NCBI GenBank assembly: GCA_022841825.1
Contig: JALHQT010000002.1
Coordinates: 333,276-397,275, forward strand
DNA: 64,000 bases
Direction: 5' to 3'
Source: Anaerolineae bacterium
GTDB lineage: Bacteria; Chloroflexota; Anaerolineae; Aggregatilineales; Phototrophicaceae
Position 1 is the stretch's first letter, and each line of letters opens with the position of its first letter. Made by a program: the position numbers and the translations under genes. The notes beneath the pieces were generated by a model. That model made no database searches. It saw only the letters and a program-made list of their open reading frames with translations, and was not told where the DNA came from. Shown in pieces: positions 3,952-16,203 of the stretch.

Positions 3952-5220
3952 TTACTGCGCTAGCTCCGGCGTAAAGGCGAAGTGTATCGCGTTCAGCGCG
4001 TCCGGCACCGTCGCCATCGGCTGCTGCCAGTAGACCGGGCGAATCTCGCGCTTCATCTTCAGCGCATATTCCCATTCCTGACGCACGAACTGCGACTGCG
4101 CTGCCGCATCCGACCAGAACAACTGGAAGATGTCCGCCTGGTCGATCAGGCGCATCAGTTCGTCGTTCCAGTCCTGCCCGCTGCGCAGCGTCGTGATGTC
4201 GCGCAGATACGTCAAGCCGAGCGCTTTGTATGCCTTTTCGACCCGCTCGACGATCTGCGTATCCTTATGACTGTAGGAGCAGAAGATCGCCTGGTAAGCC
4301 GGGCGCGTAATCGCCCCCGTCAGCGCCTCGCCGACGCTGTGCCCGACGTAAATCGACAGCGGCAGTTCAGACACGATGACGCCTTCGACCGAGAACGTCA
4401 GCTTGCCATTGACCGCCTGATCGACCGGGGCGCTCGTCGCGCGGACTTTGAAATCGAAGCGATGCATCGGCTCGTAAAAGCCAAGCGTGATCTGCGGAGG
4501 ATTGATCTGGAAGCCCGGCAGAGATGGCACCGCCGTGACCATCGCGCCTTCGTTGATGGTCACGCGCGAGCCGTCATCCGTCCGGCGAAACTCGGATGCG
4601 CGCGCGCCCAGGACATTCGCCACATCCTTGATTACGTCACCGGATGCCGACTGACGGAAGACATACGCGGCGAGTGTCTGCCAGACCTGCGGCGCGGTTT
4701 CGCGCGGGTAGTAGGCGGAGAACTTGACCAGGTCGGGCACAATCGCCGTGCCGGGTGCGGGCGGCGTCGTTGGCGGCGGCACAGCGCTGCTCTCGCCGCC
4801 GCGTGTGGGTCCGGTGGGCGCAGCAGGTTCATCACCCGCGGCGCTGTCCCAGGGTTCACTCGGCTTAGTGATGGGGGATACGGGCGTGGCGGGAACAGGA
4901 AGGGGAGCCGTTGTGGCGGGTTCCTCTTCTGCGAAGCTGTCCTCAACATCAACTTCGCCATCGTCTACACCAAAGCTATCCTCCGGCGCGGCTCCCGCGT
5001 CCTGCGGTGGCGGTTCGGACTGCTGCTGCTGGCGCGGCGGAGAGGGCGGCTCTTGCGGCTGATCCGGGAGATCGCGTTTAGGCGGCGGCGCAGCCGAGGT
5101 CTTTTCGTCGCCGTCAAGGATGTCCTCGATTTCCTCGGCAATCTGTGTACGGTAACGCAGCCCCAGATAGATCGCCGCTCCCGCAAACAGGATCAGAATG
5201 ACCAGAATTGGGAGATCCAT
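3952..5220 (-). CDS. Membrane-anchored TIR-domain protein
   Basis: 422 residues. An N-terminal membrane helix (about 3-20, MDLPILVILILF) is followed by a disordered Pro/Glu/Gln-rich linker (about 40-162). A conserved middle domain starts near VKFSAYYPRE (165-300), a segment I recall from other bacterial TIR proteins. The C-terminal TIR domain (about 305-420) has the box YQAIFCSYSHKD and continues LRSGQDWNDELMRLI. With no signal for export of the tail, the TIR domain is probably cytosolic. The start is set at 5220 by AAGGAG about 10 nt upstream. TIR domains can be NAD-cleaving enzymes or scaffolds; without an alignment I cannot say whether the catalytic Glu is kept. No effector partner gene is adjacent. 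Confidence 0.8.
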   Translation of the reverse strand: MDLPILVILILFAGAAIYLGLRYRTQIAEEIEDILDGDEKTSAAPPPKRDLPDQPQEPPSPPRQQQQSEPPPQDAGAAPEDSFGVDDGEVDVEDSFAEEEPATTAPLPVPATPVSPITKPSEPWDSAAGDEPAAPTGPTRGGESSAVPPPTTPPAPGTAIVPDLVKFSAYYPRETAPQVWQTLAAYVFRQSASGDVIKDVANVLGARASEFRRTDDGSRVTINEGAMVTAVPSLPGFQINPPQITLGFYEPMHRFDFKVRATSAPVDQAVNGKLTFSVEGVIVSELPLSIYVGHSVGEALTGAITRPAYQAIFCSYSHKDTQIVERVEKAYKALGLTYLRDITTLRSGQDWNDELMRLIDQADIFQLFWSDAAAQSQFVRQEWEYALKMKREIRPVYWQQPMATVPDALNAIHFAFTPELAQ

Positions 5221-5417
5221 AGCTTCGCTGTCTCCTTGTGTAGACCCCGTGCTTGATTGGTGAAGCACAACGTCGTCATTGTAGCGCAAGTGCAGGGCAA
5301 TTAACGCCTTTTCGTGCCGCCATTTCTAGCTTTGCAAGGGTCTGTGTTAGTTCACAGCAAGACCTTGCAAGTATTGTGATAGGTGTCGACTTTACGTGCT
5401 GTGATATGAGGTGTGTG

Positions 5418-7488: not shown

Positions 7489-7517
7489 GTAGGGGCGCAC
7501 GGCATCGCGCCCTTCAC
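7489..7517. repeat. GTAGGGGCGC hairpin repeat, copy 1
   Basis: GTAGGGGCGC at 7489-7498 with GCGCCCTTCAC at 7507-7517 forms an imperfect hairpin between two convergent genes. It is the most diverged of four copies in the window (others at 22846, 50091 and 60973). Confidence 0.7.
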
Positions 7518-8452
7518 AGACCCAGTATCCCAAAGAATCGTTCTCTATCGCTTTCATCTTCAACAATCGACTTCACGCTGAACAGATGAGTCACCGTTGC
7601 GGCGCTTAGGGTCAAATCCTGACGCGCGCGTTCAGTCATCGAGACACCTTGCACGATGAGAATTGTGACAGACTGGGGATTCTCCGCCCGCGTACGTTGC
7701 AGGCTTTTGATCGCGGCACCAATCCGTTCCAGTACGCCTGCTGGGTCAATGCCCCCTTTGACCTCAATGGCGATCAGCGGAAGATGACCTTCATAAATGG
7801 CGATATCGGGTTCATCCGCGAAGATCAGCGTTCGCCCATCCCCTAGATCAAGGCGGGTTGAGCTGGCTTCCTCGCCCACAACGATCTCGCGATCTTGCAG
7901 GCGGCGCAGAATTGCCTCACGGATAAGAACTTCCGCTGCTGCACCTTTGTTGTTCTGCCATGAACCCTGTGCCTGAGATCCCGCAGCCATACCCCGCCAC
8001 AAATCGAATTCGCGTGCATTTACGGTTTCGTCTGCTTCGACCAGCACGCTGATGATACGGTTCAGGTGGTGGGCAATCGTCCAGGCAGTCTCAGCGGTGC
8101 CGATAGATTTCCCCAACTCGTAACTATCGAGATTGATCCCCACTCGTTTCATCGACTTCTGTGAAACCATCGCCAGCATTCGATAGTAGCCCACCGCACC
8201 GGGTACAACTTGCAAGACCTGAGGGTGCGCAAAGACAAGCACTGGCTTGATCCCTCGATGAATAATCTTGTTCCATGCTTGCGCAGAGATGTTCAGGTTA
8301 TCCCAAGACAACTCCTCGCCACGCACCGCATCAATCTGGTCGCTTACTTCGACCAATTTCCATTCATGCAGTTTGCGATGAAAGAAGGTACTTTTGGCAA
8401 GCTGATCGAGCGTCCATGCCTCGATTTGAGCAGGATTTGTGCGCTTCGCCAT
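7514..8452 (-). CDS. Type II restriction endonuclease, PD-(D/E)xK type, possibly XcyI family
   Basis: 312 residues. Near residues 210-232 there is EPDIAIYEG followed by LIAIEVKGG, a PD...ExK-like nuclease core. The gene directly follows a DNA methyltransferase of the SPPY class and the two overlap as TGATG, sharing one base, so translation is coupled and I set the start at 8452. Overall features and the m4C-type partner suggest the XcyI/Cfr9I group, which cuts CCCGGG. That family name and any recognition site are inferred and need a profile search. Base composition looks less GC-rich than flanking genes, as is common for transferred restriction systems. Confidence 0.75.
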   Translation of the reverse strand: MAKRTNPAQIEAWTLDQLAKSTFFHRKLHEWKLVEVSDQIDAVRGEELSWDNLNISAQAWNKIIHRGIKPVLVFAHPQVLQVVPGAVGYYRMLAMVSQKSMKRVGINLDSYELGKSIGTAETAWTIAHHLNRIISVLVEADETVNAREFDLWRGMAAGSQAQGSWQNNKGAAAEVLIREAILRRLQDREIVVGEEASSTRLDLGDGRTLIFADEPDIAIYEGHLPLIAIEVKGGIDPAGVLERIGAAIKSLQRTRAENPQSVTILIVQGVSMTERARQDLTLSAATVTHLFSVKSIVEDESDRERFFGILGL

Positions 8453-9855
8453 CAATCCCGCTTTCGTCGCCATACATAAATGCACTTGCGCAGTTCTTCA
8501 CGTCCGTGCTCGCCCATCTGCTGACTGCTGTTGCCCTTCCCTGTCGGCAGCACCCAAATCACTTCCACCTCAAACCCCGCCTGCTCGGCGAAGTCGGAAA
8601 GAATCAGGTCAACAGGGATGGTCGCGCCGCCATAGCGTACGTTGTCATTAACCATCACGAATGGCGCACCAGGCTTGAGAAGCCGCGCACATTCGAAAAT
8701 AATCAGACCCATCTCGAAAAAGTAGTTACGCACCATTCGCGGGATACCCGGGTTATTGAGATCCTTGGTGCTCTTCTTCCATTCCAGAAAGCTGAGGATT
8801 GCCTGCAACTCAACCTGCCCATCAAATGCGGCAACAGCGTGCGCATAGACTGTTGGCGAGAATTTCTCCGCCAGCCAGGGCTTATCGCGGTTTTCGACGG
8901 TGCAGGAAACGAGCGACTGTCGCAGATCCCGCAGCATCTGTTCATCCACGCCGAGAAGCGCTAACTCTAAGGCATACGTGCGCGTGTAATCGTAGCGGTT
9001 GGCATACGGTGGCGACGTGATGAGCGCATCGAATGAAGCGGATTGAAGGGATGGCAGCAGTTCCAGACATGAACCATGAAGAACTTCGATTTTCCCTTTG
9101 GGCTGCATTGGCTCAAAGAAACCAGGTAAGAAGCCGGAGGGTTGCAGGTCAATCGCTATCTCATCCAGTTTTCTGCCGATTGCAGCGTCAAAGCTGTGAA
9201 TATGCCCTTTGTCAAAAGGCTTACTGCCCTGCCGCCGACCAGAGCGGTAATCCCAGCGCAGATACTGCCCATCCTTGCGCGTATAGCTGATCTCTTCCAG
9301 CACGCACAGCGCAGCAAACCGCAGTAAGCGCGCTGCACTGCCCGTTTCGTGCCGAAGTGCTGACAGGTAACGGTCGAGCGCAAGCTGCGTTTCTAACGAG
9401 AATGCCCCGCCTGTGATGCGCAGATGCGGAAAAGCGGTTGTCGGCTGCTCCTGAGTCCAGGGTTTTTCGCGCCGCCAGCGCGCAAGATCTGTATTGAGCG
9501 CATGGGCGTCGCCATTTTGTACGAGCTTGCGTACCTCGATGATTTCGCTGCCGACTGGGAGCAGTTCGATGCCCGTCGAATCCACGCCAAGATTGCTGGC
9601 AGCAAACAGGGTTGTTCCGACACCTGCGAACGGATCAAGGATGTGACCCGCATCAATGCCCAGGGTGTCGAAGAGGTACTGTATTAACCCTTCTGAAAAA
9701 CCTTCCTTGTATTTGAACCAGCGGTAGCCTGGTTTATCCTTGTTCGCCTGAAAGCTCACAAGCTGCCGACTCAAACGACGATTGACCTGAAGACGATCAG
9801 CAAAGCGCGCTTCCAGTTCGTTGTTATGTTCATCGATGATCTCAAGCGCGTTCAA
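8452..9855 (-). CDS. DNA methyltransferase, probably N4-cytosine, of the R-M pair
   Basis: 467 residues. Motif I is LDPFAGVGTT (about 73-82) and the catalytic motif is TSPPYANRYDYTR (about 278-290). Because motif I precedes motif IV, the domain order is the reverse of the beta class. SPPY is typical of N4-cytosine enzymes. It would protect the host from the co-encoded endonuclease downstream. The start is TTG at 9855, with AAGGA 6 nt upstream and no better ATG nearby. No controller (C protein) gene is visible. The modification type is inferred from the motif and the target base cannot be read from sequence. Confidence 0.85.
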   Translation of the reverse strand: MNALEIIDEHNNELEARFADRLQVNRRLSRQLVSFQANKDKPGYRWFKYKEGFSEGLIQYLFDTLGIDAGHILDPFAGVGTTLFAASNLGVDSTGIELLPVGSEIIEVRKLVQNGDAHALNTDLARWRREKPWTQEQPTTAFPHLRITGGAFSLETQLALDRYLSALRHETGSAARLLRFAALCVLEEISYTRKDGQYLRWDYRSGRRQGSKPFDKGHIHSFDAAIGRKLDEIAIDLQPSGFLPGFFEPMQPKGKIEVLHGSCLELLPSLQSASFDALITSPPYANRYDYTRTYALELALLGVDEQMLRDLRQSLVSCTVENRDKPWLAEKFSPTVYAHAVAAFDGQVELQAILSFLEWKKSTKDLNNPGIPRMVRNYFFEMGLIIFECARLLKPGAPFVMVNDNVRYGGATIPVDLILSDFAEQAGFEVEVIWVLPTGKGNSSQQMGEHGREELRKCIYVWRRKRD

Positions 9856-9877: not shown

Positions 9878-10918
9878 CTACCCCCCGATGTAGTACATTT
9901 CGATCTTCTCGACGGGCACCGTCACCGACGTGCGGATTTCCGAGTAGCGGTCGGTGCGCATCGCCCACGTATTGCGGATGAGCGCCTCCAGCTCGTCGTC
10001 GCTCGCGCCGTCGCGCATGGGCGTCTTCAGGTCAACACCCTGCTGCGCGAACAGGCAGGTGTAGATGTGCCCGTCGGTCGAGAGGCGCATCCGCGAACAA
10101 TCGCGACAGAACGGCATCGTCACCGACGCCACAATCCCGATCTCTCCGCCGCCATCGCGGTAACGATAGCGCAGCGCCGTCTCGCTGGCATAGCCGCGCG
10201 GGATCGGCTCCAGCGGCAGCGCCGCATCAATCGCCGCCGCGATCTCGCGCGCGGGCACGACCTTCTCCATCTGCCAGTGATTGCGATTGCCCACGTCCAT
10301 GAACTCGATGAAGCGCAGGATATAACCGCTATCCTTGCACCAGCGCGCCAGATCGACCAGCGTATGGTCGTTCACCCCGCGCTGGACGACACAGTTGATC
10401 TTGATCGGAGTCAAGCCCACCGCCGCCGCCGCTTCGATGCCCGCCAGGACTTCTGTCACCTCGGCACGCTCGCCGCTCATCTGGTGGAAGACCTGCGGAT
10501 CGAGGCTGTCCAGGCTGACCGTGACGCGCCGCAGCCCCGCCTCTTTCAGCTTCTGCGCCATCTTCGGCAGCAGCACGCCGTTGGTCGTCAGCGCCAGGTC
10601 TTCCGCGCCCTCCAGCGCCGAAAGCTGCGCCACCAGGCGCTCGATCTCCAGGCGCACCAGCGGCTCGCCGCCCGTCAGCCGCAGCTTGACCGCGCCCAGA
10701 CGGATGATGATGCGCGTCAGACGGGCGATCTCCTCGAAGGTCAGCACCTTGCTCTTCGCCAGGAACTGATACTTCTCGCCAAAAATCTCGGCAGGCATAC
10801 AGTAGGGGCAGCGAAAATTGCAGCGGTCGGTGACCGAGATGCGCAGATCGCGCAGAGGACGATTGAGGCGGTCAGTCACCGCCTCAGAAGGCTGCCCAGG
10901 TTCGGTTAGAGAGGTCAT
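9878..10918 (-). CDS. moaA: GTP 3',8-cyclase MoaA (molybdenum cofactor biosynthesis)
   Basis: 346 residues, full length for the family. The radical-SAM cluster CNFRCPYC (Cys33, 37, 40) and the second C-terminal cluster FCRDCSRMRLSTDGHIYTC are both present, as is the SAM-binding GGEP (LTGGEPLVR). The protein ends in Gly-Gly, as MoaA proteins need for activity. It makes the cyclic precursor 3',8-cH2GTP with MoaC from GTP. The start ATG overlaps the stop of the upstream 1253-residue gene (ATGA), so the two are translationally coupled although no functional link is known. Other moa genes are not in the window. Confidence 0.95.
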   Translation of the reverse strand: MTSLTEPGQPSEAVTDRLNRPLRDLRISVTDRCNFRCPYCMPAEIFGEKYQFLAKSKVLTFEEIARLTRIIIRLGAVKLRLTGGEPLVRLEIERLVAQLSALEGAEDLALTTNGVLLPKMAQKLKEAGLRRVTVSLDSLDPQVFHQMSGERAEVTEVLAGIEAAAAVGLTPIKINCVVQRGVNDHTLVDLARWCKDSGYILRFIEFMDVGNRNHWQMEKVVPAREIAAAIDAALPLEPIPRGYASETALRYRYRDGGGEIGIVASVTMPFCRDCSRMRLSTDGHIYTCLFAQQGVDLKTPMRDGASDDELEALIRNTWAMRTDRYSEIRTSVTVPVEKIEMYYIGG

Positions 10919-13900
10919 TGCACCATTCGCTCGAATTGGATGAAGTGTTGAATTTCATCTTCCGCCAATTCACGCCCCGGCGCAACGACCAGATAACCAT
11001 CCGCCCACAGGTCGGCTTTCGCCAGCGCCGGGTTTTGCTTGCGCGCGATCTCGTGCGCGCGCCGTTTCAGATCGCGCACGACTTCATACGGCGGTGTCTC
11101 GCCGGGCACATCCGCCAGCAGATAGACGAAATCGTCCTGGACGCGCAGGTTGACGACTTCCCACGAGCGGGCTTCAAGCTGCGCGCGCATGTTGGTCTCG
11201 ATTGCCCGCGCGATCATGTCGCTCAGTCGTCCTTCGGCTTGCCGCAGCAGCCAGACATAGGTATACAGCCCGCGCACATCGCTGACGGAGACCGGGTCAA
11301 CGGGGCTTTCTGCCGCGAAAGCCGTCGTCTCTGGCACACTGACCAGGGCTTCGAGCAGGCGCTTTGCCTGCGCGCGAATCGAGCGCAGCGGCGTCGAACC
11401 GGGGAAAACCAGCGACAGCGTCAGATCGCTGACCGTGCGCTTGGAATAGATCATGTAGTCTTTGGCGCTGCTGGAAAGCGTGATGAAGCGGATGTTGAAC
11501 TGCTCGCCATCGTTATCCCAGATGCCGCCCATGCCCGCATCGATCTCCATGACCTCATCGCGCGACATCCGCCCGGCGTTCGCCATGATCTCGTTGTTGC
11601 GCGTCAGCACGATCCCCGCGATGTCTTCCAGCGAGACCTGCGTCAGACTCAAGGCGATCTGCGCGATGTAGGGGTCCTGGATCGCCTCGACGCCCATCGG
11701 CGGTGTAAACTGCGACTCGTCTTCGGGCGGGAATTCAAAGGCAGCCAGCCGCTCAAACTCGGTGTTGAACTCCGGCTCCTCCTCCTCCCCAAGCTGCGGC
11801 AGGAGCGGCACCTCAAAGGGCTTCGTCCCGCCCGCCGTATCCTCATCGGTGAATGAGGGTTCCGCGCTGCCCCATTCCTGCTCCGGCTGTCGAGCCGGGC
11901 GCGTCGTGACCGCGGGCAGCCATTCGGTTTCCATCTCGCCCACCAGCGGCGGCATCGAACCGCCAAAGGTGGTGGCGTCGCTCACGTCCTGCTCGTCTTC
12001 TTCCAACTGTGGCAGCGCTTCGACATCCGCGACATCGGCGATCACCTGCGACAGAAAGTCCGGCTCGCGGACAAAAATGTCATCCCGAAGCTGTCTTTCC
12101 TTGACCCAGGACGGCAGCGGCTTGATGTTCGACTTGCCCTGCTCAAGCTGTCGCTCGATGTTGGCGATCAGGCTGGGGAGCGAGAATTCATCCGGGGGGG
12201 TCTCCTCCGTCAGCGCCGTCTCCAGGATGACCTGGGCAGCGCTCGATTCTTCATTCGGCTCGCCAAAGTCAAATTCCGTGAACGCAGGCATCGGCTTGCC
12301 ATAAGAGGCGAAGATGTCCGCAATCTCCGACTGCGAAATGGACGACTGACCATCACCCGCGGGCGAGGAATCCGGCATAACATCTGCCACGACGGGGGGC
12401 TGACTGGGCGCGTCCTCGGAACGCAGCAGCTTGAGGACTCCCTGAAACTCCGGATCGCTCACGACGGTGTAGAGATCGCCGACCGTTCCGCTGTCCTCCG
12501 CGCCGGATGGCATCGGCGGTTCCTCCGCCGCCAGCTTCTGGAAGACCTCATCGGCAAGCGCCACCGAAGGCGACTGCTGCTCGCCCAGGCGATTGACCTC
12601 CCGTGTGCGGCGGATTTCGTCGGCGATCTCCTCCAGGCGGCGGACGCCCGCATCCTCCTCGGCTGAGGTGACCGCCGGCATCTCATCAGCGCTGTTCTGC
12701 TCGAAATACTCGACTTCCGAACTGAGGTAGTTGGTGATCAACTGTTCAGGAGAAATCGGGGGTTCGAATTCATCCATGTTTACGTCGTTCGGGTAAACAA
12801 TGTCCTCATCGGCGGCTGCGGGCGGGCGCGTGGAGAGGTTCTCGTCATAGGGTGCCGGGTAGGCGGCATTCAGCTCGTCCGTCATGCCGGACAGCGCCTC
12901 GACTTCATACTGCTCCGCCAGGTTCTCCGCATCCAGCATCGACATTTCGTCCGACTGACGAACGGCGGCGAAACCTTCGGTCGTTGCTTTGCTTTTGTGG
13001 AATACGTCGGTCCCAACCCTGGGGCGCTGCTCCTCAACTTCGTCCGGGAAGTCCCACGCCTGTTCGACACTTTCATCGGGCGCTGACCCAATATCGCTCG
13101 ACAGGATCGGCATATCCAGCTCTTGCGCCGCCGCGATCAAGACATCCGTCTTCGATACTTCCGACTGCGGGATCGCAACCGAGTCATCCGGCGGCAGGAC
13201 AGCGTCCTGCGCTATCGAGATCAGCAGGTCAGTGTTCGAACGAGGCTCGTCCTGGCTGGATGATCCCAAATCATCCACAGGTAGGACGGCATCCTGGGCT
13301 TGTGAGACAAAGTAGTCTGTCGAGGATGGGGCGAGCGGCTGCAAGCCGGATGGCGTCTCCTGCGGATCATAGAAATCAAAGGCGAACGCCTCGTCAGCAG
13401 ACGCCGAGGTTGGCGCTGCCGGGTCGCTTCGCCGCGCTGCCATCGGCTGGACTGGCGCGTCTTCGCGCGTGAGCTGTTCCCACATCGCGGCGGCATCTTC
13501 CGGCGAAAGCGATGTCTCCTGTGCCTCCTGACCTTTGAAGATATCCGTGCTGATGCGTTGGCTGCCCGCCTGCTCAGGGGAGACTTCCCCTGGTCGCGGC
13601 GCAGCGGAACCCAGCGGGGCAGTCTGTGAGGCGGGAGCCGGCGGCGCACCCTCGGCAGGAATGAACCCACGATTCATCGCCAGGTTCAGTAAGTCCTGTT
13701 CGCTGAACTCACCAGGGCGGTCGCTGCGCTGCGGCAGGTCTGGCTCGGCAGGCTGCGAAGCCGAGGCGACGGCACCGGTGTTCCCCGTGCTCCGCCGATC
13801 CGGACGTTCGAGGGGTGGCAGATTGCCGCTGGAAGACTGCGGACCACCTTCCCGAAAAACATCGGTTGAGGGTGCAGTCAGGTCGTCGGTTCTCAGTTCG

Positions 13901-14676
13901 CCAGGGCGATAGGGACGGTTCTCCGGCGGAGCTGATGGAGACTTAAACGCATCCGTCCCCGTCCCGACTTCCGACGGATCGATCTCGCCCGGACGCAGTC
14001 GAGACGATGCCTGCCGCCGAAACACATCCGTTGACGGCGCGAGCAGATCATCGGTGCTGTATTCACCTGGTCGCGGCGCGGGCGGAGGCGCTGCGGGTGG
14101 CTGCGCATCCGATCCGCCCAGGTCATCGGTAGTCGTACGTTTCTTGAAGAGATCGGTGCTGTACATATAGGGGCGAAGCTGGGTTTCGTCGATCTCGCCC
14201 GGTCGCAGTTTGCGGTCGCCCGCCTCTGGCGCGGCTGGCTGCGGATTCGCGCTGGTCTGCGGCGCGGGCGGTGACGGCATCCCGACCGGGCGCGTCGACA
14301 GCCTGCGCAGATCCACTGCCTCTTCACCCTCGGCTGCGCTCGTCAGCAGGGGCATGATGTCGCGCGCTGTGAAGGGCGGGTCGATGCTCGCCTGCAACCC
14401 AAGCTGCCGTGTGACCTCTTCCGACTGCTCTGGGCTGGCGACAACGGGCAGCCGCGGCTGAATCCTGCGCAGGGCTTCGACAACCGTCGCGCCGCTCGGT
14501 GTCACACTCGTGAAGTCAATCAGCGCCACATCCTGTGGATGGGACTGGAGATATTCCAGTGCCGCATCAGAGGTGGTGAACGGATGTACATCAAAAGTGC
14601 CAGTGCGTTCAAGCGCCTGCTTCAGCGCGACAGAAAACGCAAGCTGGCGATTGATGATCAGAAGACGTATTGCCAT
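10915..14676 (-). CDS. Pseudo-receiver / repeat / Roadblock-like / inactive Y1-transposase-fold protein
   Basis: 1253 residues. N-terminus (1-115): receiver-like (MAIRLLIINRQ, VALIDFTSVTPSG), but the acidic pair after the first strand is N-R, so phosphorylation is doubtful. About 130-560: disordered, with repeated RPGE and TD[VLIAY]F motifs. About 994-1105: Roadblock/LC7-like (LEDIAGIVLTRNNEIMA). About 1137-1253: resembles IS200/IS605 TnpA (LYTYVWLL, VYLLADVP, LWADGYLVV, IQHFIQFE). There the HUH motif is replaced by FVY (bases 11122-11130) and the YxxxQ motif by FIQFE, so it should not cut DNA. It is probably a scaffold or signalling protein, perhaps using the transposase fold to bind DNA hairpins. 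Confidence in the reading frame is high, in the domain names moderate. Confidence 0.8.
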   Translation of the reverse strand: MAIRLLIINRQLAFSVALKQALERTGTFDVHPFTTSDAALEYLQSHPQDVALIDFTSVTPSGATVVEALRRIQPRLPVVASPEQSEEVTRQLGLQASIDPPFTARDIMPLLTSAAEGEEAVDLRRLSTRPVGMPSPPAPQTSANPQPAAPEAGDRKLRPGEIDETQLRPYMYSTDLFKKRTTTDDLGGSDAQPPAAPPPAPRPGEYSTDDLLAPSTDVFRRQASSRLRPGEIDPSEVGTGTDAFKSPSAPPENRPYRPGELRTDDLTAPSTDVFREGGPQSSSGNLPPLERPDRRSTGNTGAVASASQPAEPDLPQRSDRPGEFSEQDLLNLAMNRGFIPAEGAPPAPASQTAPLGSAAPRPGEVSPEQAGSQRISTDIFKGQEAQETSLSPEDAAAMWEQLTREDAPVQPMAARRSDPAAPTSASADEAFAFDFYDPQETPSGLQPLAPSSTDYFVSQAQDAVLPVDDLGSSSQDEPRSNTDLLISIAQDAVLPPDDSVAIPQSEVSKTDVLIAAAQELDMPILSSDIGSAPDESVEQAWDFPDEVEEQRPRVGTDVFHKSKATTEGFAAVRQSDEMSMLDAENLAEQYEVEALSGMTDELNAAYPAPYDENLSTRPPAAADEDIVYPNDVNMDEFEPPISPEQLITNYLSSEVEYFEQNSADEMPAVTSAEEDAGVRRLEEIADEIRRTREVNRLGEQQSPSVALADEVFQKLAAEEPPMPSGAEDSGTVGDLYTVVSDPEFQGVLKLLRSEDAPSQPPVVADVMPDSSPAGDGQSSISQSEIADIFASYGKPMPAFTEFDFGEPNEESSAAQVILETALTEETPPDEFSLPSLIANIERQLEQGKSNIKPLPSWVKERQLRDDIFVREPDFLSQVIADVADVEALPQLEEDEQDVSDATTFGGSMPPLVGEMETEWLPAVTTRPARQPEQEWGSAEPSFTDEDTAGGTKPFEVPLLPQLGEEEEPEFNTEFERLAAFEFPPEDESQFTPPMGVEAIQDPYIAQIALSLTQVSLEDIAGIVLTRNNEIMANAGRMSRDEVMEIDAGMGGIWDNDGEQFNIRFITLSSSAKDYMIYSKRTVSDLTLSLVFPGSTPLRSIRAQAKRLLEALVSVPETTAFAAESPVDPVSVSDVRGLYTYVWLLRQAEGRLSDMIARAIETNMRAQLEARSWEVVNLRVQDDFVYLLADVPGETPPYEVVRDLKRRAHEIARKQNPALAKADLWADGYLVVAPGRELAEDEIQHFIQFERMVQ

Positions 14677-15063
14677 AACCGCACACCCGTTGACTCATAG
14701 TAAAGAGGCAGCGCCGGGCATGGAACACCCGTGCGCTGTCGTTACAGTAATCATACACGAAATCAACGCGAGTGCAGATGAATAATTTCGCAGTCGCGTA
14801 CATTCGGAAATGGGGCGGATGCGAAATCCGCCACCATTCCGCCACCAGGGGTTGAAAACCCCTGGCTACAAGTTGCGGTGGGAAGCCACCTGAAGGTGGC
14901 TCTGACCCGCCGCTGGAGTCCACGACAGGCGGCGCATGATGATGTTCCCGGCGGGTCAGAGCGGGTTTCAACCCGCTTCCCGCCGGAACATCGTAGCCGG
15001 GCGGCTTTTAGCCCCCGGCGAAGCGGCAGCCCCCTTTCATGCAGAACGAGGGGGGAATTGAGT
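14677..15063. other. 387-bp gene-free spacer holding a palindrome cluster
   Basis: The first 100 bases hold the upstream region of the 1253-residue gene; I see no clear promoter. The rest is packed with palindromes (listed separately). I see no open reading frame with a credible start signal. Confidence 0.7.
14814..15017. repeat. Cluster of palindromes with small TT-x-AA type loops
   Basis: Direct reading gives GGCGGAT/ATCCGCC (14814-14832); CCAGGGGTT-GAA-AACCCCTGG (14845-14865); GCCACCT/AGGTGGC (14885-14900); CTGACCCGCCG (14902-14912) with CGGCGGGTCAG (14949-14959); and a two-tier hairpin whose outer arms are GATGTTCC...CGGCGGG (14941-14955) and 14979-14992 and inner arms AGCGGGTT-TC-AACCCGCT (14960-14977). 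The segment CGGCGGG can pair with either neighbour, so alternative folds compete. A last imperfect stem lies near 14996-15019. Similar palindromes occur near 19709, 36653 and 54103. Confidence 0.75.
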
Positions 15064-16203
15064 CTACGACCCTACCGTCACCGTGAAGATGCCCATGTTG
15101 TTGACTTCACTCACCTCGGTGATCTGGTTGTCGCTGTCCGTGCGCACCTGGAGCGTGTAGCTGCCCGTCGCGCGGAAGGTCAGGCTGGCGTTCAGGACTA
15201 TGCTCTCGCCACCGCGCAGGTTGGCGACCACGCCGAGCGGAATGGTCTCGTTGGTCGGCAGGATCGTCACGACGTTGTTGAACTGCGCCGTGGTCCCGCT
15301 GCCTGTGTTGGTGATGGTGATGGCATACGTCGATGTCACCGCGCCCGCGCCGAGGACGAGGCTGGACGAGCCGCTGATATTCGTCACCAGCAGGTCGGCG
15401 AGACCTGGAGTGACGGTAGGCGGCACTGTCGGGATGATGGTGAAGGTCGGCGGGACGATGGTCGCCGTCAAGGGCAGCGGCGTATTGGTCGGCGGCGGAG
15501 GTGCCTGCACGACCGGGACGGCATTGCAGATGCCGTAGATCGTGACGAAGTCATCCGTCACCCAACCGAGCGTCAGCCCGACGCGCACCTGCCACCACGA
15601 GTTATCAGCGACGCGCCCGGCAATCGGCACGACTGTGCCCGCAGCCAGACCGCTGATGCGCGGGTAATTGGTACCGGGTCCCTGCCGTACGTTCAAGCCG
15701 GTCGCGGCAAGCGCGCGACAGGTCGGATCGTTGGGGTTGATGACGGGGACGTTGGCGGCGGGCGCGCTGGTCGCCGTGACCTGCGCCTGCAACGCGCGAA
15801 TGGTGAGCGAGATCAGCGCCGGGTCGCTGGCAACCGCTGCGCGATAGGCGATCACAGACAGGTTGAGCGCCCCTGCTTCGGTCGGCGTGTAGTCGAGGAC
15901 GGCGTTCATCGCCTGGCTGCCATTGGGCTGGTCGGAGCGGATGGTCTTGACGATGCGCCCGTTCGCCAGAAGCTGCATCTGAGTTACGCCGATGCTGTCG
16001 GTGGCGCTGGCGCTGACCAGCACCTGCTGGTTGACGACGCTCTCGCTGCCGCTGGCGGGCGATGTGATCGTTACACTGGGGCGTGCGCTGATGATGCCGG
16101 TCGGCGTGGGGATGCGCTGCTGAACAGGTTCACTGGAGAGCGTGCACCCTGCGAGAGCGAAGACGGCGAATAAGAGTATGACGACCTTCAGCCTATTGAG
16201 CAT
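15064..16203 (-). CDS. Lipoprotein with Ig-like, SH3b and CARDB domains
   Basis: 379 residues. The signal peptide ends in a lipobox (FAVFALAGC), so Cys20 is the probable lipidation site. An Ig-like domain (about 40-135, VTITSPASGSESVVNQQVLVS) is followed by an SH3b domain (about 160-225, GLNVRQGPGTNYPRISGL, WWQVRV, GWVTDD), a Pro/Thr linker, and a C-terminal CARDB-like domain (about 275-378). It is an exported, membrane-tethered protein, probably binding cell-wall or surface polymer through the SH3b module. AAAGGA lies 7 nt before the start. The ligand is unknown. Confidence 0.85.
   Translation of the reverse strand: MLNRLKVVILLFAVFALAGCTLSSEPVQQRIPTPTGIISARPSVTITSPASGSESVVNQQVLVSASATDSIGVTQMQLLANGRIVKTIRSDQPNGSQAMNAVLDYTPTEAGALNLSVIAYRAAVASDPALISLTIRALQAQVTATSAPAANVPVINPNDPTCRALAATGLNVRQGPGTNYPRISGLAAGTVVPIAGRVADNSWWQVRVGLTLGWVTDDFVTIYGICNAVPVVQAPPPPTNTPLPLTATIVPPTFTIIPTVPPTVTPGLADLLVTNISGSSSLVLGAGAVTSTYAITITNTGSGTTAQFNNVVTILPTNETIPLGVVANLRGGESIVLNASLTFRATGSYTLQVRTDSDNQITEVSEVNNMGIFTVTVGS

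Follow-up and report, generated by a model that had tools for sequence, protein, structure and literature searches.

A catalytically inactive Y1 transposase domain joined to receiver-like and roadblock-like domains in Anaerolineae

Domain architecture of the fusion protein

The stretch of DNA analyzed here (hereafter the window) comprises 64,000 nucleotides from the genome of an Anaerolineae bacterium of the order Aggregatilineales (assembly GCA_022841825.1, contig JALHQT010000002.1, positions 333,276 to 397,275). On its reverse strand, at 10915..14676 of the window, lies a single open reading frame of 1253 amino acids that combines a pseudo-receiver, a long linker, a roadblock domain and an inactive Y1 domain. 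The receiver-like domain (residues 1-118; 14323..14676) is followed by a linker rich in proline, serine and acidic residues, delineated from the sequence (residues 119-1000; 11677..14322), a roadblock/LC7-like domain (residues 1001-1118; 11323..11676) and, at the end, a catalytically dead Y1 domain of the IS200/IS605 TnpA type (residues 1136-1253; 10918..11271), all encoded on the same strand. The position of the HUH motif is occupied by F1183-V1184-Y1185 (11122..11130, reverse strand) and that of the Y...Q pair of the catalytic helix by F1245...E1249 (10930..10944, reverse strand). The segment 10915-11271 on the reverse strand, in which the transposase resemblance was originally noticed, is the in-frame C-terminus of this protein, namely residues 1136-1253 and the stop codon. 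The joining of the three domains is not an assembly artefact because the fusion is found repeatedly in many genomes.

The Y1/IS200 transposase fold at the end of the protein is confirmed by both sequence profiles and structure prediction. The 10915-11271 stretch alone matches Pfam Y1_Tnp with an E-value of 3.4e-10 and 40.5 bits (cut-off 23), and the full protein of 1253 residues matches it with E 2.8e-08; the score against the NCBIfam IS200 model is 39.5 bits, below that model's own cut-off of 55. A profile of 67 orthologous Y1 domains retrieves the solved TnpA 2f4f with E 2.4e-15 and ranks eight distinct solved IS200/IS605-type transposase sequences ahead of a pair of weak hits to unrelated sequences (E 0.04 and 0.5). 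The AlphaFold model of residues 1001-1253 has a mean predicted local distance difference test score (pLDDT) of 88.7, with block means of about 96 over the Y1 part; the relative placing of the roadblock and Y1 domains is unsure because the predicted template modeling score is 0.52. When this model is used as a Foldseek query, TnpA structures occupy ranks 1 to 29, and its VIA-align superposition on the TnpA structure 2fyx gives Z 14.7 with a root mean square deviation of 2.9 over 121 residues. A chance resemblance is ruled out by the profile E-value and the Z score. The by-eye alignment of the last 117 or so residues with TnpA in the initial annotation is therefore borne out by Pfam, the 67-domain profile, Foldseek and the superposition, with no competing fold seen, and its reading of the active site (HUH histidines to Phe and Tyr, catalytic Tyr to Phe, and the following Gln to Glu) is exact.

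The two other domains proposed in that annotation, a pseudo-receiver and a Roadblock-like domain, are likewise supported by predicted structure. The receiver part scores E 1e-5 and 26.1 bits against Pfam Response_reg, below the cut-off of 30.2, which the receiver of one homologue (L136) passes (here and below, L-numbers denote individual loci or records, and f34, f41, f42, f58 and f62 other families of the class Anaerolineae sample). The AlphaFold 2 (AF2) model of residues 1-118 (pLDDT 94.6) has a CheY-like fold, and Foldseek matches it to 3crn with E 8.3e-8 and a template modeling score of 0.87. Among the positions that we take to form the phosphorylation site, D54 and S81 are kept, the acidic pair reads N9/R10 and the lysine position reads P100, so that 'pseudo-receiver' is a fair name for the window protein because the acidic pair and the lysine are lost despite retention of the aspartate. 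These residues vary among the members of the family, some of which keep more of them than the window protein. The modeled roadblock part (residues 1001-1118) aligns, by VIA-align, with EGO-TC 4xpm (Z 12.0), p14/MP1 1vet (Z 11.9) and MglB 6hjm (Z 11.9), and its Foldseek matches have E-values of about 1e-3; the Pfam matches of the 67 members at E 0.1 do not include Robl_LC7, although the fold is supported by structure.

RPGE occurs six times and TDx(F/L) at least eight times in the linker of the window protein; both are possible docking motifs. Over 94 linkers, PGE followed by a hydrophobic residue occurs 17 times in total versus a mean of 4 in shuffled sequences, and motifs of the TDxF type occur 27 times versus 7.5. 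These motifs are confined to nine (PGE) and 13 (TDxF) of the 94 linkers, and were dropped as a family-wide trait. Motifs of the form PGE(L)DxTR, resembling those of the window linker, are present in a number of f34 proteins.

Loss of the active site, conservation and spread

In the comparisons of active sites, charges and alignment columns, fused members are those in frames of at least 300 amino acids (n = 104, of which 69 are from the order set and 35 from the class set), counted after removal of 25 duplicate C-termini from 152 rows; the 23 short Y1 relatives compared with them were hand-picked from short-frame matches and are not a random sample. The HUH motif and the catalytic tyrosine are intact in none of the 104 fused members versus 20 of the 23 short standalone relatives, the exceptions among the latter being two proteins with one histidine replaced and one dead paralogue from f34. 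No fused member retains both histidines: the first is present in 10 and the second in 7. The tyrosine persists in 27 (4 of 69 in the order set and 23 of 35 in the class set). Family members with intact HUH and tyrosine residues that transpose, the case that the initial annotation named as contrary to its proposal, are thus missing from the fused set. The HUH replacements differ by lineage, reading F/Y-V-Y in the window order, Y-L-Q in f34 and L-V-H in f42, and therefore fit the expectation of released constraint. The window genome provides an internal control for the loss of the active site, with four standalone Y1 genes above the family cut-off, three of which have HVH or HLH and the tyrosine and one of which is apparently truncated. 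The dead f34 paralogue (L191:715-1299) is a standalone protein of 194 amino acids with Y-L-Q and Phe at the respective positions, and groups with the fused domains of f34 and f58 in the tree.

For the 30 closest pairs listed, the ratio of nonsynonymous to synonymous substitution rates (dN/dS) was calculated over the Y1 domain: three pairs are saturated, and the other 27 have values of 0.012-0.130. These pairs are non-independent, several have dS above 1 and none includes the window protein, the nearest relative of which is 62% identical. Five of the 30 pairs are from the order (0.068-0.130) and the remainder are from other families of the class. Mean identity over 27 order rows is 0.535 for the Y1 domain, 0.549 for the roadblock domain and 0.131 for the short linker between them; over all 67 rows, the respective values are 0.352, 0.403 and 0.135. 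Several residues are characteristic of the order compared with the short Y1 proteins: P1233 (66 of 69 versus 0 of 23), R1235 (67 of 69 versus 2 of 23), E1241 (64 of 69 versus 0 of 23) and D1226 (59 of 69 versus 2 of 23). W1224 was withdrawn as a mark of the fused family, being present in all 23 short proteins.

A match to the Y1 stretch (E at most 0.01) was found in 86 of 101 genomes of the window genus, family and order, its own included, and in 84 of these genomes the match lies in a frame of at least 300 amino acids; the window genome itself carries one fused copy. A first scan of named genomes with the single protein as the query gave no match. Close records with names are mostly titled Anaerolineae, Anaerolineaceae, Aggregatilineales or Chloroflexi. 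Two records titled Bacteroidetes bacterium (L155) and Pleurocapsa minor (L176) carry the Chloroflexota gene and are probably mislabeled metagenome-assembled genomes. Of 298 genomes drawn from the class, 136 have a match to a roadblock plus Y1 profile at E 0.001, many through standalone Y1 proteins or receiver-roadblock proteins without Y1; receiver-roadblock-Y1 proteins of 369-590 residues are present in f34, f42, f58, f41 and f62. A search of other Chloroflexota, suggested in the initial annotation, thus recovers the same domain order in other families of the class. In the scan of the phylum (400 genomes, with the six best first-look candidates per genome scored), the matches listed from other classes cover the Y1 part, nearly all in short frames; a 580-amino-acid frame containing a stop (G578) is also among them. 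Receiver-roadblock proteins without Y1 occur in other families of the class (L129, L130, L131, L134, L135 and L141).

In trees built on thinned order rows, the Y1 domains group largely by taxonomic family, and in the all-column Y1 tree the fused domains and L191 share one side of a branch with support of 92. Mainly vertical inheritance of the fused gene is the best explanation.

Gene neighborhood

Immediately downstream of the fusion gene in the window is moaA (9878..10918, reverse strand), which overlaps it by 4 bases; upstream is a gene for a lipoprotein with SH3 and CARDB domains (15064..16203, reverse strand). Among 80 loci, a set that includes loci at contig edges and six loci without Y1, a relative of this lipoprotein is encoded just upstream in 36, and polA is located directly downstream, on the same strand and within 1.5 kb, in 37. 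In two close relatives of the window locus (L032 and L033), moaA likewise replaces polA. polA is also the adjacent gene in four f34 and two f58 loci, where the miaB, V4R and lipoprotein neighbors typical of the order were not found. Recurrent neighbors in the order are miaB and a gene for a V4R-like protein upstream, and argF, a gene for a tetratricopeptide repeat protein, cdaA, ybbR and der downstream. The Y1-less receiver-roadblock gene L131 also adjoins polA. Candidate partners encoded in the window genome are one Ras/Arf-type GTPase and three conventional roadblock proteins.

A scan for promoters and terminators yielded nothing exceeding chance. An anti-phage defense role for the fusion protein was rejected, as PADLOC gave no match to it. 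The window additionally encodes a type II restriction-modification pair (7514-9855), consisting of an XcyI-like endonuclease (Pfam RE_XcyI, E 4e-19) and a type II DNA methyltransferase, and a TIR-domain protein (3952-5289; TIR_2, E 6e-16) with a long proline-rich N-terminal part and a weak match to a SAVED/TIR defense model.

Origin, function and relation to known systems

Given the transposase fold, the dead site in all 104 fused members, the low dN/dS and the conserved loci, the data support capture of a transposase domain that was inactivated and kept by selection. The most plausible scenario is that an IS200/IS605-type Y1 domain was joined, within the class, to the C-terminal end of a receiver-roadblock protein whose gene probably already resided beside polA, and that this domain then lost its nuclease residues and was retained under selection. 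The TnpA Y1 domain and relatives of the roadblock domain dimerize. Because two folds that dimerize in their known relatives are adjacent, the input domain has degenerated, and a Ras-like GTPase and other roadblock proteins are encoded in the genome, we consider it somewhat more probable than its negation that the domesticated transposase is now a non-catalytic part of a cytoplasmic signaling scaffold. In such a scaffold, the degenerate receiver would take the input, not necessarily through classical phosphorylation, the long flexible linker would bear short docking motifs, the roadblock domain would dimerize and dock a Ras-like (MglA-type) GTPase, and the Y1 domain would serve as a second surface for dimerization or docking. 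A broader formulation, in which the transposase became a fixed non-catalytic signaling domain coupling the pseudo-receiver and roadblock domains to a new output beside polA, with the mode of output shifting by lineage from protein docking in the window order to, perhaps, retained nucleic-acid contact in sister families, is tentative and has, in our estimate, slightly less than an even chance of being correct.

The charge of the Y1 domain bears directly on this output. The median net charge is -7 in the order, +7 in the 23 short proteins and +3 in the other fused families. In an alignment with 20 intact standalone domains, 12 columns carry a basic residue in half or more of these domains; three of the 12 are basic in the window protein, and column 1226 is acidic in 91% of the order members. 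Hairpin binding in the window order is disfavored, and a role in interaction or dimerization favored, because the domain is acidic and has gained conserved residues of its own; judging from these sequence features, the Y1 domain of this order most likely no longer binds hairpin DNA, whereas binding appears more likely for the Y1 domains of the sister families.

Several observations weigh against the scenario of a single capture followed by a shift to scaffolding. When the active-site columns are omitted, a single fused clade is recovered in 37% of bootstrap trees and is not rejected by the approximately unbiased test (p-AU 0.51), so a single origin of the fused Y1 domains is favored by the all-column tree but is not secured without these columns. 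In the receiver-roadblock tree, the Y1-less members require at least two changes, and gain and loss of Y1 are accordingly indistinguishable. The residues P1233, R1235, E1241 and D1226 are mostly not common to the other fused families, and therefore the fused families may not all work alike. Net charge predicts binding only crudely; position K1204 is basic without exception in the 20 intact standalone domains and has stayed so in 51% of the order members, and the other fused families keep more basic columns than the window order. Since K1204 is often basic and the sister families are mildly basic, some contact with nucleic acid may remain. Finally, no Ras/Arf-type GTPase gene was seen as a neighbor of the fusion gene.

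The main rival to the scaffold is a dead Y1 domain that acts as the output by recognizing hairpins or single-stranded nucleic acid, with the receiver and roadblock domains controlling where and when, in gene regulation or at replication forks. REP (repetitive extragenic palindromic) hairpins are recognized by TnpAREP (PMC8266576; this and the other papers are cited from parts of their text), the solved TnpA-DNA complexes include, by its structure title, a Tyr-to-Phe mutant (2xo6), and the Y1 domains of the sister families have the median charge of +3 with several basic columns retained. In addition, a composite palindrome resembling REP or bacterial interspersed mosaic elements is located at 14840-14990, between the lipoprotein gene and the fusion gene, hence 5' of the latter. 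However, the genome contains 9 exact copies of the palindrome GGGGTTTTCAACCCC and 7 that differ from it by one mismatch, versus 0 for the reversed control, and 8 of the 9 exact copies belong to a longer two-hairpin unit. A search of the 700 bases upstream of the gene, limited to this pattern and to no other kind of hairpin, finds it in one of 80 loci, and none of the 3.2-3.3 kb regions around the genome's four standalone Y1 genes contains a copy. Being a dispersed repeat that is missing upstream in the other 79 loci, the palindrome was rejected as a conserved hairpin target. With most basic columns lost or reversed in the acidic domain of the window order, we regard nucleic-acid output as unlikely, albeit less so in the sister families. 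The initial annotation, which proposed a regulatory or DNA-hairpin-binding module, is thus supported with respect to capture, inactivation and fusion, and a regulatory role fits, but its hairpin part is weak.

The recurrent polA adjacency, including the f34 and f58 loci, raises another possibility, namely a role in replication or repair with the Y1 domain docking on DNA polymerase I or on the sliding clamp, and an interaction of IS608 TnpA with the beta clamp DnaN has been proposed (PMC6006769). This we consider improbable: moaA takes the place of polA in the window genome and its two close relatives, the Y1-less gene L131 adjoins polA as well, and common descent may by itself preserve synteny. 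An active nuclease that uses atypical catalytic residues is a very remote prospect; the scattered retention of the tyrosine or of one histidine would be compatible with it, but no fused member keeps both histidines and the replacements vary by lineage, as under released constraint. The missing catalytic residues would also be expected if an insertion sequence (IS) fell into the end of the gene and left a decaying, functionless fusion, and partial IS200 copies are common and tend to decay (PMC6006769). For such a remnant dN/dS near 1 is expected, and the low ratios in related pairs, the newly conserved residues and the presence of the fusion in most genomes of the order sampled largely contradict this explanation, to which we assign a negligible probability.

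The receiver-roadblock-dead Y1 arrangement is apparently a real and hitherto undescribed domain architecture. No description of a Y1/IS200 domain fused to a roadblock or receiver domain, or of an inactive or domesticated fusion of this kind, was found among the open-licence papers searched, in agreement with the statement in the initial annotation that no protein with this domain order had been described. We know of no earlier HUH/Y1 transposase recruited into cell signaling without its nuclease; if the signaling role is correct, this would be the first. The family offers a well-sampled case for the transition from transposase to regulator, with active-site losses that differ by lineage, and makes this transition testable, as the mildly basic Y1 domains of the sister families can be set against the acidic domain of the order with its own conserved residues. 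A practical corollary is that, because family libraries match the window gene to IS200-like models, a conserved and probably host-serving signaling protein may be mistaken for mobile DNA.

Among known systems, IS200/IS605 TnpA (2f4f, 2fyx, ISDra2, IS608) shares its sequence family and whole fold with the last 118 residues of the window protein. Unlike active TnpA, the window domain lacks the HUH motif, the tyrosine and the metal-ligand glutamine, is acidic and stands behind signaling domains; unlike mobile TnpA, it belongs to a protein of 1253 amino acids with one fused copy in the genome and conserved neighbors in relatives (IS ends and tnpB were not looked for). TnpAREP, called the first described bacterial domesticated transposase, is active and linked to REP (PMC8266576). 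TnpAREP, or RAYT (REP-associated tyrosine transposase), is likewise a domesticated Y1 protein with housekeeping-like behavior (PMC8266576, PMC6006769), but RAYTs retain catalytic activity and are associated with REP repeats, and those of class 2 carry a signature of HUH and Y---NP (PMC6006769), whereas the window protein is devoid of HUH and the tyrosine. A survey of Y1 proteins kept the 722 of 924 sequences that had both HuH and Y motifs, removing the others as probably non-functional, and set aside proteins that were longer than expected, which it treated as gene fusions or misannotations (PMC6006769); proteins like the one described here would fall outside it. The 'Group 3' MglA/MglB systems include a protein with a receiver-like domain, a linker and a winged helix (PMC4316618) and share with the window protein the pseudo-receiver, the variable linker, an output domain and the company of roadblock and Ras-like proteins. 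In the window protein, by contrast, a single chain includes the roadblock domain as well and ends in a dead Y1 fold instead of a winged helix.

The origin-binding domains of papillomavirus E1 and large T lack nicking activity, and TldR descends from TnpB. These viral domains likewise employ a Rep/relaxase-type fold for binding (PMC5618006) but, unlike the window Y1, bind DNA and lie outside the Y1/IS200 family. TldR, a family of RNA-guided transcription factors, is similarly an IS605-related protein recruited for regulation (PMC13418256), with a fold unrelated to Y1 and an RNA-guided mechanism.

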